Assembly (NCBI RefSeq): GCF_900104785.1
Contig: NZ_LT629733.1
Location: 3,034,672 to 3,098,671, forward strand
From: Formosa sp. Hel1_31_208
GTDB taxonomy: Bacteria > Bacteroidota > Bacteroidia > Flavobacteriales > Flavobacteriaceae
Length of the DNA: 64,000 nucleotides
Reading direction: 5' to 3'
Part shown: in pieces, positions 37,407-43,160 of the stretch
How the letters are laid out: every line of letters starts with the position of its first letter
How positions within the stretch are numbered: position 1 is the first letter of the stretch
Position numbers and translations under genes: made by a program
Notes under the pieces: generated by a model
The model's input: only the letters and a program-made list of their open reading frames with translations
What the model was told of the DNA's origin: nothing
Database searches by the model: none

Positions 37407-37739
37407 TTTACTTTAATACTAATAGCACAAGCATTAATCAACACAAAAAAAACGCTTTGTCTCCTTATTTCGATTTAATTCTGAATTAAAAAGTAGAGTT
37501 CCTTAATCGACTAATGATACTTACAAGTTAAATTAATTTTTAAAAAAGACTATTTTTTTAAAGTGATTTTTTGTAAAAAACATGTATGTCATTTTATACT
37601 TACCCATGTTAAATGAAACCTGTTGTTCTATATGTGTCACAAAATAAACCGATCATCTGTTTTTTTAAACAAAAAAACGTTCCTTGAGTATTTTTCTTAT
37701 GATTTTATGTATCTTAAGATGGTTAGTAACCATGTAAAA
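37407..37739. other. Intergenic stretch upstream of the Crp/Fnr gene
   Basis: 333 bases without a supported gene. A 17-base perfect palindrome TTTAATTC-T-GAATTAAA lies at 37474-37490, a possible operator for the divergent genes. The rest is A/T-rich, and a frame runs back from 37740 to 37623 without family similarity. Confidence 0.35.
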
Positions 37740-38324
37740 ATGCAATCTGATAATTCTAAAATAAAAGATATTTTTAAAAATCTTTCTTTTTCCGAAAACG
37801 AAATAAAGATTATAGAATCTGTATTTCATAAAGTGAACTACAAAAAAGGAGATATGATTATCAAACCAGATGACAATGTTGATAATCAATACTATATTTT
37901 GGAAGGCTGCCTCCGTTCTTATTTTATAAATCGACAAGCCAAAGAACATACCGTACAATTTGGAATCAAAGACTGGTGGATTAGTGATTACACCGCATTT
38001 TTCTCAGATTCTAAATCCATTATGAATATTGAAGTTATAAAAGATGCCACATTATATAAATTATCTAAATCAGATAAAGAACATTTATATTCTGCAATTC
38101 CACGTATTGAGTCCTTTTTCAGAAAAAAATTAGAAAAGGCTTTTGCGGCATTTCAAAAACGCATATTATCAAATTTATCTGAAACAGCTGCTGTTCGATA
38201 TAAAAACTTTATTAAGACCTACCCAAATATAGAACAGTGTGTAAAAAATTACCATATTGCGTCATACTTAGGGATCACTACTGAAAGTCTAAGCAGAATA
38301 CGAAAAGACATTTCTCACTCATAA
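37740..38324 (+). CDS. Crp/Fnr family transcription regulator
   Basis: 194 residues from the ATG at 37740. The cyclic-nucleotide-binding-like domain (VNYKKGDMIIKPDDNVDNQYYILEG, RSYFINRQAKEHTVQFGI) is followed by a helix and a winged-helix HTH at the end (YHIASYLGITTESLSRIRKDI). No cysteine cluster for an Fnr iron-sulfur centre is apparent, so a redox or ligand signal other than O2/[4Fe-4S] is more likely. Its closeness to the sulfur operon and to a Crp-geometry operator at 39486 makes it a candidate regulator of that operon, which is an inference. Confidence 0.8.
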   Translation: MQSDNSKIKDIFKNLSFSENEIKIIESVFHKVNYKKGDMIIKPDDNVDNQYYILEGCLRSYFINRQAKEHTVQFGIKDWWISDYTAFFSDSKSIMNIEVIKDATLYKLSKSDKEHLYSAIPRIESFFRKKLEKAFAAFQKRILSNLSETAAVRYKNFIKTYPNIEQCVKNYHIASYLGITTESLSRIRKDISHS

Positions 38325-38650: not shown

Positions 38651-39283
38651 ATGAAAATCATCTCGACCAATATCGCTAAACCAACAACCATCTTTTGGAA
38701 TGGCAAAGAGGTGACCACAGGCATCTTTAAAAAACCTGTTGACTCGGCCATTCACCTCGGAAAAGAAAACGTGAAAGGCGATGAGGTTTCCGATAGAAAA
38801 GTCCATGGTGGTATATACAAAGCCTGTTATTTATTTTCTACAGATCATTATCCATATTGGAAAACCCTGTATCCAAATCTCAACTGGACTTACGGTATGC
38901 TTGGTGAGAACCTAACTGTTGAACATTTAAATGAAAAAGAACTTCATATTGGTGATATCTATAAGGTTGGAAATGCCTTAGTACAAATCACACTACCTAG
39001 AGAACCTTGTTATAAATTTGCTGCTAAATTTGAATCTACAACCGTAATAAAGGCCTTCGTTGCCCACGGTTACCCTGGCACTTATGTTCGTATTTTAGAA
39101 GAAGGCACGGTGAAAAATGCCGACACTTTTCAATTGGTGGAAAAAATAGAACATAGTATCTCCATTTGGGATTTTTTTGCGCTGTTATATGCGCAAAATA
39201 AAAACAAAGATCATATCCGATTAATTATGGATAATGAGGCTTTACCCCAACGAAAGAGACAGATACTAAAAGCTTTATTATAA
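38651..39283 (+). CDS. MOSC domain protein (YiiM-like)
   Basis: 210 residues. The MOSC family signatures are DRKVHGGIYKACYLFSTDHY and GMLGENLTVEHL, with the conserved cysteine in LPREPCYKFAAKF near residue 120, which is thought to carry sulfur. MOSC proteins act in molybdenum-cofactor sulfuration or detoxification. Its place directly upstream of the sulfide-handling operon is notable. A near-palindrome spans the stop codon. Confidence 0.85.
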   Translation: MKIISTNIAKPTTIFWNGKEVTTGIFKKPVDSAIHLGKENVKGDEVSDRKVHGGIYKACYLFSTDHYPYWKTLYPNLNWTYGMLGENLTVEHLNEKELHIGDIYKVGNALVQITLPREPCYKFAAKFESTTVIKAFVAHGYPGTYVRILEEGTVKNADTFQLVEKIEHSISIWDFFALLYAQNKNKDHIRLIMDNEALPQRKRQILKALL

Positions 39284-39629
39284 GGAGACTCCTTATTATT
39301 AGACATTCCTTTTATTAAATCTAGATGATACCCGTTTGGTTTACCAGGTTATAGAAGCGCTTCAAGAGTAAACCTATTCAAACTTGATGTAATTACGTAG
39401 AAATAAAATTAAACTCAAGCCTCCAAAAAGACGCTATACACATTAGGTTTTCTCTATAGTATACTTGCAAAAATCTCCTGATGTTATGTAACATAGGTTA
39501 CATAGGTATATGACAATTATCATGTTATTTTGAGGCACTTCAGAGTACCTTTATACAACTAAAAACATTATAACCATGTAATGTATGATAAGGTTAATTT
39601 TATCAGCTGTTACAACAAACTAAATAATC
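39284..39629. other. Leader of the sulfur operon
   Basis: 346 bases containing an imperfect nested inverted repeat at 39334-39383 (GTTTG..CAAAC outside, GGTTTAC..GTAAACC inside, with the palindrome GAAGCGCTTC in the middle) and the operator at 39486-39503. TACCTTTA at 39546-39553 resembles a TAnnTTTG -7 box. The distance from operator to ATG is 127 bases. Confidence 0.4.
39486..39503. promoter_or_regulatory. Perfect palindromic operator with Crp/Fnr geometry
   Basis: ATGTAACATAGGTTACAT: ATGTAAC and GTTACAT are perfect inverted arms around ATAG. Written as TGTAA-N6-TTACA it matches the 5-6-5 spacing of Crp/Fnr sites. It lies upstream of the FadL-SQR-DsrC-DsrE2 operon, and the nearest Crp/Fnr gene is 1.2 kb away. 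Confidence 0.6.
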
Positions 39630-40964
39630 ATGAGATCACTTTTTTCAACATTTTTGTATTTACTTTTTTCGGTTTCGGCTATCGCTCAAACTGGTCATAT
39701 TATGCAAGGTGCAGGATCTGTGAACATGTCTATGGGTGGTGCTGCAACCGCACAACCTTTAGATATTTCAGGAGCTTTGCAATGGAACCCAGCTGCCATA
39801 TCGACTTTTGATGGAACCATCATAAGTTTTGATATTGGATTATTCTCATCATCTCCAACATTATTCTCTACTGTTCCAGAATTTGATAGCATGGGTATGC
39901 CAACTGGTAATTTCTTTTCTGGTGTAACTGAAGACGATAGAGGCCTTTCACCTATGCCTGCTTTAGCAGTAGTTTGGGGAAAAGAAGGTAGCAAGCACAC
40001 CTTTGGAGCTTCTGCTTTTGGTATTAGCGGATTTGGAGTGACGTTTCCAGAAAGTATGACAAATCCTATTAATGCTCCTCAAAGTATGGGTGGATTTGGT
40101 CGTATAGAATCCGATTATATTTTATTACAAATCGGTTTTACTTGGGCTTATGAATTAAGTGACAACTTTTCAATAGGTCTAGAACCAACTTTTAATTATG
40201 CCACTCTAGAATTAATGCCTAATCCAACAGCAAATCCTGGAGCATCTGGTTATCCTTCAACAGATAAAGCGACTGCAACTGGGTTTGGTGGTCAAATAGG
40301 ACTATTTTATGATTCTAAAACAGGGTTTAAGGCTGGTTTATCCTATAAAAGCACTCAATCGTTCAGCAAGTTTAAATTCGATAACACCTATTTAGATGCT
40401 TCTACAGGCACTAATGAATTTAATATGGATTATCCAGCAATCTATTCCATTGGTTTGGGATACTCAAAATCTGATTTTGATATTGCTTTAGATTACAGAT
40501 TAGTAGATTATGAAAACACAGATGGATTCTCAACTACGGGATGGACACCTACTGCATCAGTAAGTGGGTTTGGATGGCAAAACATTTCAATAGTTTCGGC
40601 TGGTGTTCAATATAAAGGTATCAATAAACTGCCTTTACGAGTTGGGTACACGTACAGTTCTAATCCGATAAACGACGACGTTGCATTTTTTAATATCCCA
40701 GCAACGGCGATTATTAAAAATGCATTTCAGTTAGGGTTAACTTATGAATTTAATGACCGACTTAATTTAAATGCAGTTTACCATCATGGTGATAGCGGAG
40801 GAAAAACTTCTGGTCAAATATTAAATCCTGGATTTATACCAAACTTCCCTCCTTATGGTGCAATCCCAGGTAGTAATGTATCCTACGAGATGACTACAGA
40901 TTTATTTATGATAGGATTTAATTACACGTTTAAAAGAAAAGAGGTAAAAAATAACGACTTATAA
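39630..40964 (+). CDS. FadL/OmpP1 family outer membrane channel
   Basis: 444 residues with signal peptide (LYLLFSVSAIAQ). The start of the mature part, GHIMQGAGSVNMSMGGAATAQP, and the N-terminal hatch (ALQWNPAA) are typical of FadL-like 14-strand barrels that admit hydrophobic compounds by lateral diffusion. It is the first gene of a four-gene operon. The substrate in this context might be hydrophobic sulfur compounds, an inference from neighbours only. Confidence 0.85.
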   Translation: MRSLFSTFLYLLFSVSAIAQTGHIMQGAGSVNMSMGGAATAQPLDISGALQWNPAAISTFDGTIISFDIGLFSSSPTLFSTVPEFDSMGMPTGNFFSGVTEDDRGLSPMPALAVVWGKEGSKHTFGASAFGISGFGVTFPESMTNPINAPQSMGGFGRIESDYILLQIGFTWAYELSDNFSIGLEPTFNYATLELMPNPTANPGASGYPSTDKATATGFGGQIGLFYDSKTGFKAGLSYKSTQSFSKFKFDNTYLDASTGTNEFNMDYPAIYSIGLGYSKSDFDIALDYRLVDYENTDGFSTTGWTPTASVSGFGWQNISIVSAGVQYKGINKLPLRVGYTYSSNPINDDVAFFNIPATAIIKNAFQLGLTYEFNDRLNLNAVYHHGDSGGKTSGQILNPGFIPNFPPYGAIPGSNVSYEMTTDLFMIGFNYTFKRKEVKNNDL

Positions 40965-40975
40965 AAAACAATATA

Positions 40976-42220
40976 ATGAAAGAGCTACTCATATTAGGTG
41001 CAGGGACGTCAGGGACAATGATGGCGAATCATCTTCGAAAAACACTTCCTAAAAAGGATTGGAATATAACAATAGTGGATCAGGAAGAAACACATTATTA
41101 TCAACCTGGATTTTTATTTCTACCTTTCGATTTATATAAATCGAAAGATGTTAAAAAGAAAATAGATAAGTTCATTCCTAAAGGTGTTCAATTAATTAAC
41201 GAAAAAATTGATCGCATAGATAAAGACAATGATATCGTTCTACTTAAAAACAATACATCTTTAAAATATGACATTTTAATTATAGCCACAGGAACAAAAA
41301 TTGCTCCGCAAGAAATAGAAGGCATGTTAGGTGATCATTGGTATGATACTGTATTTGATTTTTACACCTTTGAAGGTGCACGAAACTTGCGTAATAAATT
41401 AAGAAATTGGGAAGGTGGCAAATTGGTTGTTCATATTACTGAAATGCCTATTAAATGTCCAGTAGCTCCTTTAGAATTTGCTTTTTTAGCTGACTCTTAC
41501 TTCATTAATAAAGGAATGCGAGATAAGGTTGACATTACATATGTAACACCAATGTCAGGTGCATTTACAAAACCAAAAGCAACAGAAGCCCTAGAGCACT
41601 TATTAGATCAAAAACATATTAAAGTAGTTCCTGACTTTAATATAGAACACGTCGACGGAGCTCATCAAAAAATTGTCGATTATGCAGGTGAAGAGGTTGC
41701 ATATGATCTATTAGTCACGGTCCCAACTAATATGGGTGACGATATGATTGAACGTTCAGGATTTGGTGATGAATTAAATTTTGTACCCACTGATAAGGCT
41801 TCCCTTCAAACCACCGTTAAGGACAATATTTTTGCCATAGGTGACGCGACTAACATACCTGCTTCTAAAGCCGGTTCTGTTGCCCATTTTGAAGCAGAAA
41901 TATTAACCGAAAACATCAAGAGATATATAGCAGGCGAAGCACTCAAGAAAGAATATGATGGTCATGCCAATTGCTTTATAGAAACGGGTCATGGAAAAGC
42001 CTTACTGATAGACTTTAATTACAATCAAGAACCAGTAAAAGGCACATTCCCTTTCCCAGGTGTAGGTCCATTAAGTTTATTAAAGGAAACACACATGAAT
42101 CATATGGGTAAATTAGCTTTCCGATGGATTTATTGGAACATGCTTATTAAAGGCAAACATATTCCTTTCGTATCTGCAACAATGAATACCGCAGGAAAAC
42201 AATTAGAAGAATCAGTATAA
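40976..42220 (+). CDS. Sulfide:quinone oxidoreductase-like flavoprotein
   Basis: 414 residues. The FAD-binding GAGTSG motif is at residues 8-13 and a second nucleotide segment (NIFAIGDATNIPASKAG) near 285. The protein has only two cysteines, C161 in PIKCPVAP and C333 in HANCFIETG, which sit where the redox pair of sulfide:quinone reductases lies. It should oxidise sulfide to sulfane sulfur with electrons going to quinone, on the membrane surface. It begins 11 bases after the FadL gene. It might instead be a related NADH- or persulfide-linked enzyme. Confidence 0.8.
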   Translation: MKELLILGAGTSGTMMANHLRKTLPKKDWNITIVDQEETHYYQPGFLFLPFDLYKSKDVKKKIDKFIPKGVQLINEKIDRIDKDNDIVLLKNNTSLKYDILIIATGTKIAPQEIEGMLGDHWYDTVFDFYTFEGARNLRNKLRNWEGGKLVVHITEMPIKCPVAPLEFAFLADSYFINKGMRDKVDITYVTPMSGAFTKPKATEALEHLLDQKHIKVVPDFNIEHVDGAHQKIVDYAGEEVAYDLLVTVPTNMGDDMIERSGFGDELNFVPTDKASLQTTVKDNIFAIGDATNIPASKAGSVAHFEAEILTENIKRYIAGEALKKEYDGHANCFIETGHGKALLIDFNYNQEPVKGTFPFPGVGPLSLLKETHMNHMGKLAFRWIYWNMLIKGKHIPFVSATMNTAGKQLEESV

Positions 42221-42242
42221 TAATAAACTAAATCTTAAAATA

Positions 42243-42557
42243 ATGGTAGTAGAAAAAATATATGGAGAACTGTGTGTCACATGCAATGCACAAGGTTATT
42301 TAACCGATTTAAATCAATGGACAAAAGAAGTTGGTTCAGAAATCGCTAAAGAAGAAGGTATTGAAATGACAGATAAACATTGGGAAGTCATTACTTATTT
42401 ACAAGATCAATGTAGAAATCAAGTTCCTTTAAGTATCAGAAAAATTGGTAAAAGTGGTGTTGTAAGCATCAAAGAATTCTATCAACTCTTTCCTAAAGGA
42501 CCTTTAAAAATATCGAGCAGAATTGCTGGTATACCAAAACCCGTAAGTTGTATATAA
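42243..42557 (+). CDS. DsrC/TusE-like sulfur carrier
   Basis: 104 residues. The C-terminal arm FPKGPLKISSRIAGIPKPVSCI carries the invariant penultimate cysteine (C103) of DsrC/TusE. The second redox cysteine, eleven residues earlier in true DsrC, is a serine (S92), so it resembles TusE, which carries persulfide but cannot make the trisulfide. An added N-terminal CVTC pair (C11, C14) is not seen in typical members. It lies between the SQR-like and DsrE2-like genes, 22 bases after the former. Confidence 0.82.
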   Translation: MVVEKIYGELCVTCNAQGYLTDLNQWTKEVGSEIAKEEGIEMTDKHWEVITYLQDQCRNQVPLSIRKIGKSGVVSIKEFYQLFPKGPLKISSRIAGIPKPVSCI

Positions 42558-42591
42558 CTCAGGTTATCACTAATCAATAAATACTATTAAA

Positions 42592-43107
42592 ATGGAAAAT
42601 ACTATGTCAAGCCCTGTAAATGAAAAAAAGGAAGGTAAAAAACCCATCAAAAAAATGATGCTTATTTTATCTAAGGCAACAATAGATAATGTTTATGCTT
42701 GCTTTATTCTAGCAAATGGTGCTCGAATGGAAGGTATCGAGTCAGAAATATTTTTTACGTTTTTCGGATTGGAAGCGATTCAAAAAAAGAAACTTGAACA
42801 TTTACGTGTTGCTACCGTTGGAAATCCAGGTATGCATATTCCAACCATGCTAGGCGGTTTACCAGGAATGGAAGCCTTGGCAACCAAAATGATGAAATCT
42901 GAAATGGAAAAACTAGATATTCCGCCAGTTGGTGAATTCTTAGAAATTCTTTCAGCCTCAGGAACTAAACTATGGGCTTGTAAATTAGCAATGGATATGT
43001 TCCATCTTGGAAAAGAACACTTAGTTGAAGATCTTGATGGTGTATTAACCGTTGGTGATTTCTATGCACGAGCACAAGGCGACAATACACATCTACTCTT
43101 TATCTAA
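42592..43107 (+). CDS. DsrE2-like sulfur transfer protein
   Basis: 171 residues. A DsrE/DsrF-like Rossmann core begins at about residue 20 (KKMMLILSKATIDNVYACFILANGA) after a charged N-terminus. The candidate active cysteine is C130 in KLWACKLAMDMF, and a second cysteine is C37. The DsrE2 branch hands persulfide sulfur between TusA/DsrC-type carriers. No TusA gene is nearby. The operon's last gene, followed by a strong terminator. Confidence 0.8.
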   Translation: MENTMSSPVNEKKEGKKPIKKMMLILSKATIDNVYACFILANGARMEGIESEIFFTFFGLEAIQKKKLEHLRVATVGNPGMHIPTMLGGLPGMEALATKMMKSEMEKLDIPPVGEFLEILSASGTKLWACKLAMDMFHLGKEHLVEDLDGVLTVGDFYARAQGDNTHLLFI

Positions 43108-43125
43108 CTTCTTATGATTACAATG

Positions 43126-43160
43126 AAAAAAACCACTTTGCTCAGGCAAGGTGGTTTTTT
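43126..43160 (+). terminator. Intrinsic terminator of the sulfur operon
   Basis: AAAACCACTTTGC/GCAAGGTGGTTTT with loop TCAG, followed by Ts. Its sequence and flank (TAATTA) almost match the htpG terminator 7 kb away. Confidence 0.88.

Follow-up and report, generated by a model that had tools for sequence, protein, structure and literature searches.

A conserved SQR-DsrC-DsrE2 cassette and a candidate sulfide-oxidation regulon in Formosa sp. Hel1_31_208

The operon and its proteins

The stretch analysed here, called the window, comprises 64,000 nucleotides of the genome of Formosa sp. Hel1_31_208 (contig NZ_LT629733.1, positions 3,034,672 to 3,098,671) and contains an operon for a FadL-like channel, a sulfide:quinone oxidoreductase (SQR), a DsrC-like carrier and a DsrE2-like sulfurtransferase (Table 1). 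The four open reading frames (ORFs) all lie on the + strand with intergenic gaps of 11, 22 and 34 bases, which confirms the layout given in an earlier interpretation made from the DNA letters alone (the sequence-only reading). The operator in front and the terminator behind, both part of that layout, are borne out as well: the palindrome is perfect, and the hairpin folds with -20.2 kcal/mol, where shuffled sequences average -5.9 (z -6.7; equalled by 0 of 200 shuffles). The hairpin was absent from the output of a simple terminator scan of the window, and a sigma-70 promoter scan gave matches that were not above shuffled sequence. The exact operator core TGTAACNNNNGTTACA is found at 39487. With up to two mismatches the core has four sites in the window, which is not above chance, and therefore only the exact core is informative there.

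Table 1. Features of the operon and its boundaries (positions in the window)
Feature	Position	Strand	Details
Operator, perfect inverted repeat TATGTAAC-N4-GTTACATA	39485..39504	.	8-base arms, 4-base spacer
FadL/TodX-type outer-membrane channel, optional partner	39630..40964	+	PF03349, 84.5 bits (cut-off 29.7)
Predicted type III sulfide:quinone oxidoreductase, Cys form of the 'selenoprotein subtype'	40976..42220	+	Redox pair C161/C333
TusE/DsrC-family carrier	42243..42557	+	Penultimate Cys103, no CysB; PF04358, 91.9 bits (cut-off 24.9)
DsrE2-like sulfurtransferase	42592..43107	+	Cys130
Intrinsic terminator hairpin	43127..43160	+	15-pair stem

The SQR matches NF049943 (type III SQR, selenoprotein subtype) with 647.7 bits, against a curated cut-off of 525. 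C161 and C333 are its only cysteines, as already noted in the sequence-only reading and confirmed from the translation. They align with two cysteines of human SQOR and are Cys in all 140 aligned rows (137 from cassette loci and three from the f18 genomes described below; the G219 row was left out, and L136 and L221 are near-identical). Both redox positions of the selenoprotein subtype are thus also present in the window SQR, with Cys and not Sec at 333. The Sec motif is given as HxxU in a table of a review (PMC13188914) and corresponds to H330-A-N-C333 here. For a Sec form, no internal stop was found in the over-cut-off matches of a phylum scan (395 genomes), and the best 80 of at least 589 GTDB relatives all have Cys, where one of the two scan patterns contained that Cys and was biased against Sec. 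From the family match and the redox cysteines, the window SQR is predicted to carry out quinone-linked sulfide oxidation. It could also be some other quinone-linked thiol oxidoreductase with the two carriers as its protein substrates, as human SQOR chains, the closest proteins of solved structure, share just 25-26 % identity with it by structural alignment; given the score for the SQR family and the invariant cysteine pair, we regard this as very improbable.

The DsrC-like protein also exceeds the cut-off of TIGR03342 (81 bits, cut-off 53.5) and falls below that of the TusE equivalog PRK11508 (64.5 against 191 bits). C103, the CysA position, is Cys in 127 of 128 cassette relatives. The CysB position (92, eleven residues before CysA) holds Ala, Thr or Ser in all 128 and Cys in none, and because CysB is missing throughout, the cassette DsrC is classed as TusE-like. 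A CysA-CysB trisulfide is known for DsrAB substrates, and without CysB it cannot form in the cassette protein.

The DsrE2-like protein matches PF13686 (109.3 bits, cut-off 25) and has a DsrE fold according to the fold test, and scores below the DsrE2 sulfur carrier equivalog NF047629 (97.2 against 210 bits). Its C130 is Cys in 118 of 118 aligned rows. Both carriers hold one invariant thiol across relatives. The sequence-only reading had named these two active cysteines correctly, and had left out C11, C14 and C57 of DsrC as well as C37 of DsrE2. The additional C11-x-x-C14 and C57 of the window DsrC occur in no other aligned relative (1/128, 1/128 and 1/127) and may form a metal or redox site peculiar to this protein.

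Conservation of the cassette

Of 149 genomes of the family, 22 have a close SQR match (E at or below 4e-162), and PF04358 matches are found in exactly the same 22, here called carrier genomes. PF13686 exceeds its cut-off in these 22 and in G066 (at a contig end), with weak matches in G011 and G089. Four further family genomes have weak SQR-like matches only (E 4e-31 to 2e-43), two carrier genomes have a weak second match, and the genus mate G045 has no SQR, DsrC or DsrE2 match. On the stretches read around each cassette (4-18 kb, up to contig ends), 20 of the 22 have SQR, DsrC and DsrE2 directly next to one another. Both exceptions are contig breaks: the contig of G147 breaks off behind DsrC, and a PF13686 match on another contig scores much above the cassette form, while in G146 the cassette is split over two contigs. 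FadL adjoins the cassette in only nine of the 22, in seven of them divergently. The true conserved unit is SQR-DsrC-DsrE2, with FadL as a frequent but optional partner. The sequence-only reading, which proposed a compact relay from SQR to DsrC with a FadL channel and suggested checking whether the four genes always occur together, is thus partly supported and can be extended: the trio stands, whereas FadL as a fixed member does not.

Within the phylum, NF049943 exceeds its cut-off in 95 of 395 genomes, of which, by a count from the table, 57 belong to family f18 and 38 do not. Each of these 38 carries a PF04358 match, and outside f18 PF04358 is over its cut-off without NF049943 only in G303, G499 and G510 (below the cut-off in G401). 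DsrC and DsrE2 follow SQR in all 35 non-f18 Bacteroidota loci read, i.e., the 38 minus three that are among the 22. A scan of GTDB contigs with the SQR alignment returned at least 589 relatives, of which the best 80 loci were analysed. DsrC and DsrE2 lie behind SQR in 73 of these 80, and the other seven had 48 to 1013 bases of contig left. The best 80 loci come from Marinimicrobia, Calditrichota, KSB1, Verrucomicrobiota, Gemmatimonadota, Chloroflexota, Actinomycetota, Acidobacteriota, Ignavibacteriota and Bacteroidota; these labels were taken from record titles and tree labels, mostly of metagenome-assembled genomes, and single assignments may be wrong. The conserved neighbourhood on which the sequence-only reading depended is found: the three cytoplasmic genes are kept together across about ten phyla, which is more than chance. 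Pairwise distances of the three proteins correlate (r 0.70-0.74; 119 loci, species relatedness uncorrected), which fits shared descent. As for plasmid spread, tblastn of the SQR against 72,556 plasmid records at E 1e-60 returned six records, all with haloarchaeal names and 33.5-34.6 % identical.

An extra gene lies behind SQR (before DsrC where visible) in 77 of the best 80 GTDB loci (L169-L248) and in 11 of the 63 loci L106-L168. The two representatives tested exceed the DUF1641 cut-off (27.2 and 24.0 against 21). Among the loci with this gene is L236, from Lutimonas halocynthiae CECT 8444. The window operon and its lineage have the cassette without a DUF1641 gene, and in the SQR tree the two family carriers that have one cluster with Lutimonas and Bacteroidales, which suggests that these cassettes were acquired separately. 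According to a study on Bacillus (PMC8808070), the DUF1641 protein ForE1 is required for the formate:menadione activity of the formate dehydrogenase ForC1 and is most likely needed for menaquinone binding. ForE of Bacillus ForCE is therefore a DUF1641 protein beside a quinone-reducing enzyme, as in the cassettes of other phyla though not in the window operon, and by analogy a quinone-coupling role for SQR is a fair guess for the cassette protein.

The f18 genomes are probably green sulfur bacteria, and three of their SQR proteins form a long separate branch in the tree. From the match tables, 11 of the 57 f18 genomes (loci L335-L345) were read as having SQR and DsrC no more than 12 kb apart. 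SQR is 3-12 kb before DsrC on the same strand in the ten of these loci with a DsrC ORF called; in L335 an overlapping ORF call hides DsrC, yet the profile search lists a match. A DsrE2 match is present on the fetched stretch in 5 of the 11. L343, which was read closely, has behind SQR the genes for a molybdopterin oxidoreductase, DsrE2, a rhodanese, TusA, a CobB/CobQ-like protein, DsrC, dsrA and dsrB, and its DsrE2 is canonical (216.8 bits, equivalog cut-off 210). On the stretches read, no carrier genes were found near the SQR of f18 loci L164-L167 or of the below-cut-off G219 locus. A DsrE2-DsrC relay thus accompanies this type of SQR in genomes with dsrAB as well as in those with the cassette. 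The f18 DsrC ends in ACK(V/I)AGLPKPTGCV in 10 of 10 sequences and so keeps both CysB and CysA, whereas the cassette DsrC appears to have lost CysB. Membership in PF04358 and the related SQR beside dsrAB might suggest that the cassette DsrC works through a CysA-CysB trisulfide as in the dissimilatory DsrAB pathway; the missing CysB contradicts such a role, and we give it practically no credence.

A shared operator and a candidate regulator

The exact core TGTAACNNNNGTTACA is found four times in the 3.1-Mb genome, and a reversed control pattern not once. One copy precedes the FadL-SQR-DsrC-DsrE2 operon. The second lies about 70 bp before a gene for an MBL-rhodanese dioxygenase (L254:5985-7400; genome 1.891 Mb), a persulfide dioxygenase-rhodanese type protein of the kind encoded at two places in this genome (G000). 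This operator-linked dioxygenase combines an MBL domain with two rhodanese stretches and matches the MBL plus rhodanese-type proteins of PDB entries 3tp9 (E 1e-65) and 3r2u (E 3e-58), the latter of which we take to be CstB of Staphylococcus aureus. Its neighbours on the same strand are genes for a Crp/Fnr protein, TauE, a rhodanese and a cytochrome c-like protein. The third copy stands about 63 bp before a SorA-like gene (L253:6235-7455, - strand; genome 1.467 Mb), behind which are genes for a SorB-like cytochrome c and a double-rhodanese protein. The SorA-like and SorB-like proteins stay under the cut-offs of the SorA and SorB families. Among solved structures, those closest to the SorA-like protein are sulfite oxidases (2a9d, E 2e-54) and subunit A of sulfite:cytochrome c oxidoreductase (2blf, E 7e-47). 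The fourth copy (L253:9103, G000:1469102) lies 1.6 kb beyond the SorA site and 50 bp before a DUF4386-like membrane-protein gene, with a DUF4386 match below the cut-off. An operator beside a DUF4386-like gene next to a SorA-like region is also seen in a second genome (L332:696, G034).

The 21 other carrier genomes hold 52 exact operator sites and nine sites of the reversed control. Upstream of the cassette, or of its leading FadL, the operator is exact in 14 of the 22 and within one mismatch in 16. Where FadL is divergent, it lies between FadL and SQR in six of seven, and none was found in the seventh (L114). We also looked for the operator, at up to one mismatch, within 400 bp upstream of 33 SorA-like regions (G000 and partial matches in G051 and G079 left out) and 37 dioxygenase regions (24 closer-type places besides G000 plus one in each of 13 further carrier genomes; the upstream regions of G007 and G147 left out). 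It precedes SorA-like genes in 6 of 11 other carrier genomes and 5 of 22 non-carriers, and dioxygenase genes at 9 of 19 places in other carriers and 14 of 18 in non-carriers. In mononucleotide shuffles of the SorA regions the operator rate was 0.0009. A SorA-like match is present in 12 of 22 carrier genomes and 24 of 127 non-carriers (Fisher p 0.0008). Judged by its sites, the operator appears to define a regulon for sulfur oxidation that spans the family and has recruited the cassette, and joint control of the first and last enzymes in the window genome is a well supported prediction. A distant second SQR-like gene (about 26-28 % identical) also has an exact operator 50-70 bp upstream (G037:C265:6742 and G105:C38:5970).

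For Crp/Fnr proteins of the HcpR2 branch, one study (PMC1274295) gives the motif GTAACnnnnGTTAC. In the window genome, a Crp/Fnr gene stands before TauE and the dioxygenase. It has relatives (E 1e-20) in 18 other fetched loci, including the cassette loci L115, L125, L126 and L236, and its Cys77 and Cys84 are kept in 18 of 18 sequences covering them (own included). This cysteine-bearing, dioxygenase-linked protein is likely the regulator at TGTAAC-N4-GTTACA, where it would bind and may sense persulfide. The sequence-only reading had pointed to a Crp/Fnr gene and a MOSC gene just upstream of the operon, and neither is retained. The upstream Crp/Fnr-like protein (37623-38324) has a weak helix-turn-helix match and is not conserved beside the cassette: its best blastp match to the dioxygenase-linked Crp/Fnr is not significant (E 6.5), and tblastn over the fetched loci found, besides the window itself, one weak homologue (30 %, L229). 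On the stretches read, a MOSC gene (38651-39283 in the window) is found in only one of the 21 other family carriers, G125, on the opposite side. In L333:1030-2735 (G083), a cysteine-bearing Crp/Fnr gene lies directly before an operator copy, followed by what by eye we take to be YeeE/YedE-like genes and then an iron-sulfur protein gene.

Proposed pathway and relation to known systems

In our view this operon probably forms the entry part of an inducible regulon for sulfide oxidation, in which protein-carried sulfur goes to the dioxygenase and then to the sulfite dehydrogenase. SQR would oxidise sulfide at C161/C333 and pass the electrons to quinone. In the cytoplasm, Cys130 of the DsrE2-like protein, Cys103 of the TusE-like DsrC or both would accept the sulfane sulfur and keep it protein-bound, until the co-regulated CstB-type persulfide dioxygenase-rhodanese turns it into sulfite or thiosulfate. 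The SorAB-like sulfite dehydrogenase, which is also co-regulated, could then oxidise the sulfite to sulfate, or the TauE beside the dioxygenase could export it. Overall, the route would lead from sulfide through protein persulfide and sulfite to sulfate. Family identities, invariant thiols, the conserved cassette and the common operator are read from sequence, and the assignment of SQR and the terminal enzymes to their families is well supported; each sulfur transfer step, the order of steps, the substrate of the dioxygenase and the binding of the regulator are what we infer from them. The acceptor question left by the sequence-only reading gains a candidate in the dioxygenase-rhodanese under the common operator.

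How the sulfur reaches the dioxygenase might differ in detail. A tentative possibility is that the SQR-(DUF1641)-DsrC-DsrE2 cassette keeps sulfane sulfur on proteins throughout and that DsrC persulfide, not glutathione or coenzyme A (CoA) persulfide, is the dioxygenase substrate. If true, small-thiol-free sulfide oxidation would extend over about ten phyla, and the route would either descend from the dsrAB-linked SQR-DsrE2-DsrC arrangement of f18 or be its forerunner. A little less likely in our view, DsrE2 and DsrC store sulfane sulfur or pass it to small thiols (CoA, bacillithiol), and the dioxygenase uses a small-thiol persulfide. CstB enzymes do use a small-thiol persulfide, and the dioxygenase is close to 3tp9 and 3r2u and has two rhodanese stretches, but a TusE-like carrier with an invariant thiol in nearly every cassette would then be left unexplained. 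TusE serves tRNA thiolation in E. coli, and as the cassette DsrC is TusE-like with CysA only, SQR might simply detoxify sulfide while DsrE2 and DsrC feed biosynthesis such as tRNA thiolation, and not an oxidase. This is improbable, as the patchy occurrence suits a housekeeping tRNA function poorly, the common operator points toward the dioxygenase and the sulfite dehydrogenase, and no TusA match (PF01206, E 0.001) was found in the window genome, with the control search positive in 11 of 14.

Several observations weigh against the proposed route from SQR through protein carriers to dioxygenase and sulfite dehydrogenase. Both the sulfur transfer and the induction are inferred. The dioxygenase is nearly universal (140 of the 149 family genomes) and so is not specific to carrier genomes, and its presence was rejected as evidence for a link to the cassette; its closer type (25 genomes, at least 65 % identity) is not significantly enriched (7/22 carriers and 18/127 non-carriers, p 0.06), and the operator precedes the dioxygenase in non-carriers as well. 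Ten of the 22 carrier genomes have no SorA-like match, and therefore thiosulfate or sulfite is possibly the end product there. Six of the 22 lack the operator at up to one mismatch before the cassette, and at 7 of 19 dioxygenase places in carriers it is missing within 400 bp even at up to two mismatches. Exact sites also lie elsewhere in several of the 21 other carriers, in G125 and G032 partly by genes that look respiratory (L325, L326, L328 and L331, named by eye), and the operator regulon may be wider than sulfide. Finally, f18 has an SQR of the same type beside a dsrAB system, and the dioxygenase is not the sole possible outlet.

In one sediment survey (PMC12345210), type III SQRs, with 1,814 sequences, outnumbered every other SQR type. 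In the literature searched, no statement was found on what accepts type III SQR sulfur in comparable organisms. The cassette would supply two dedicated carriers and, via the operator, the next two enzymes, so that the acceptor question becomes directly testable. SQR together with a CysB-less DsrC and DsrE2 is a marker set that would separate such sulfide oxidisers from dsrAB organisms, for which DsrC alone is misleading, and the cysteine-bearing Crp/Fnr is a candidate thiol-based sulfur regulator in Bacteroidota. The component families are known, while their combination in a cassette with a regulon is apparently undescribed: no description was found in the literature searched, a partial coverage with subscription journals mostly outside, and the accessible parts of the type III SQR review (PMC13188914) and the deep-Sep paper (PMC12013277) do not name the carrier cassette.

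The pathway of heterotrophs shares SQR and the persulfide dioxygenase-rhodanese with the proposed system; here they are under one operator that also covers the sulfite dehydrogenase, and two extra protein carriers, the TusE-like DsrC and DsrE2, are locked to SQR. E. coli TusE is likewise a DsrC-family protein that has only the penultimate cysteine of the CysA/CysB pair, whereas the cassette DsrC falls below the TusE equivalog cut-off, neighbours SQR and occurs patchily. The f18 dsr cluster (L336-L345) resembles the cassette in that it combines DsrE2 and DsrC with a related type III SQR on a single stretch, but differs in its rhodanese, TusA and dsrAB (L343), its CysB-bearing DsrC, its canonical DsrE2 and its non-contiguous genes. 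A TusA-DsrEFH-DsrC relay is described for cable bacteria and Allochromatium in one paper (PMC13293266). Unlike that relay, the system in the window genome comes without a TusA match, with one DsrE2-like protein in the operon and with a DsrC that lacks CysB; yet in both, a DsrE-fold sulfurtransferase would pass sulfur to a DsrC-family protein.

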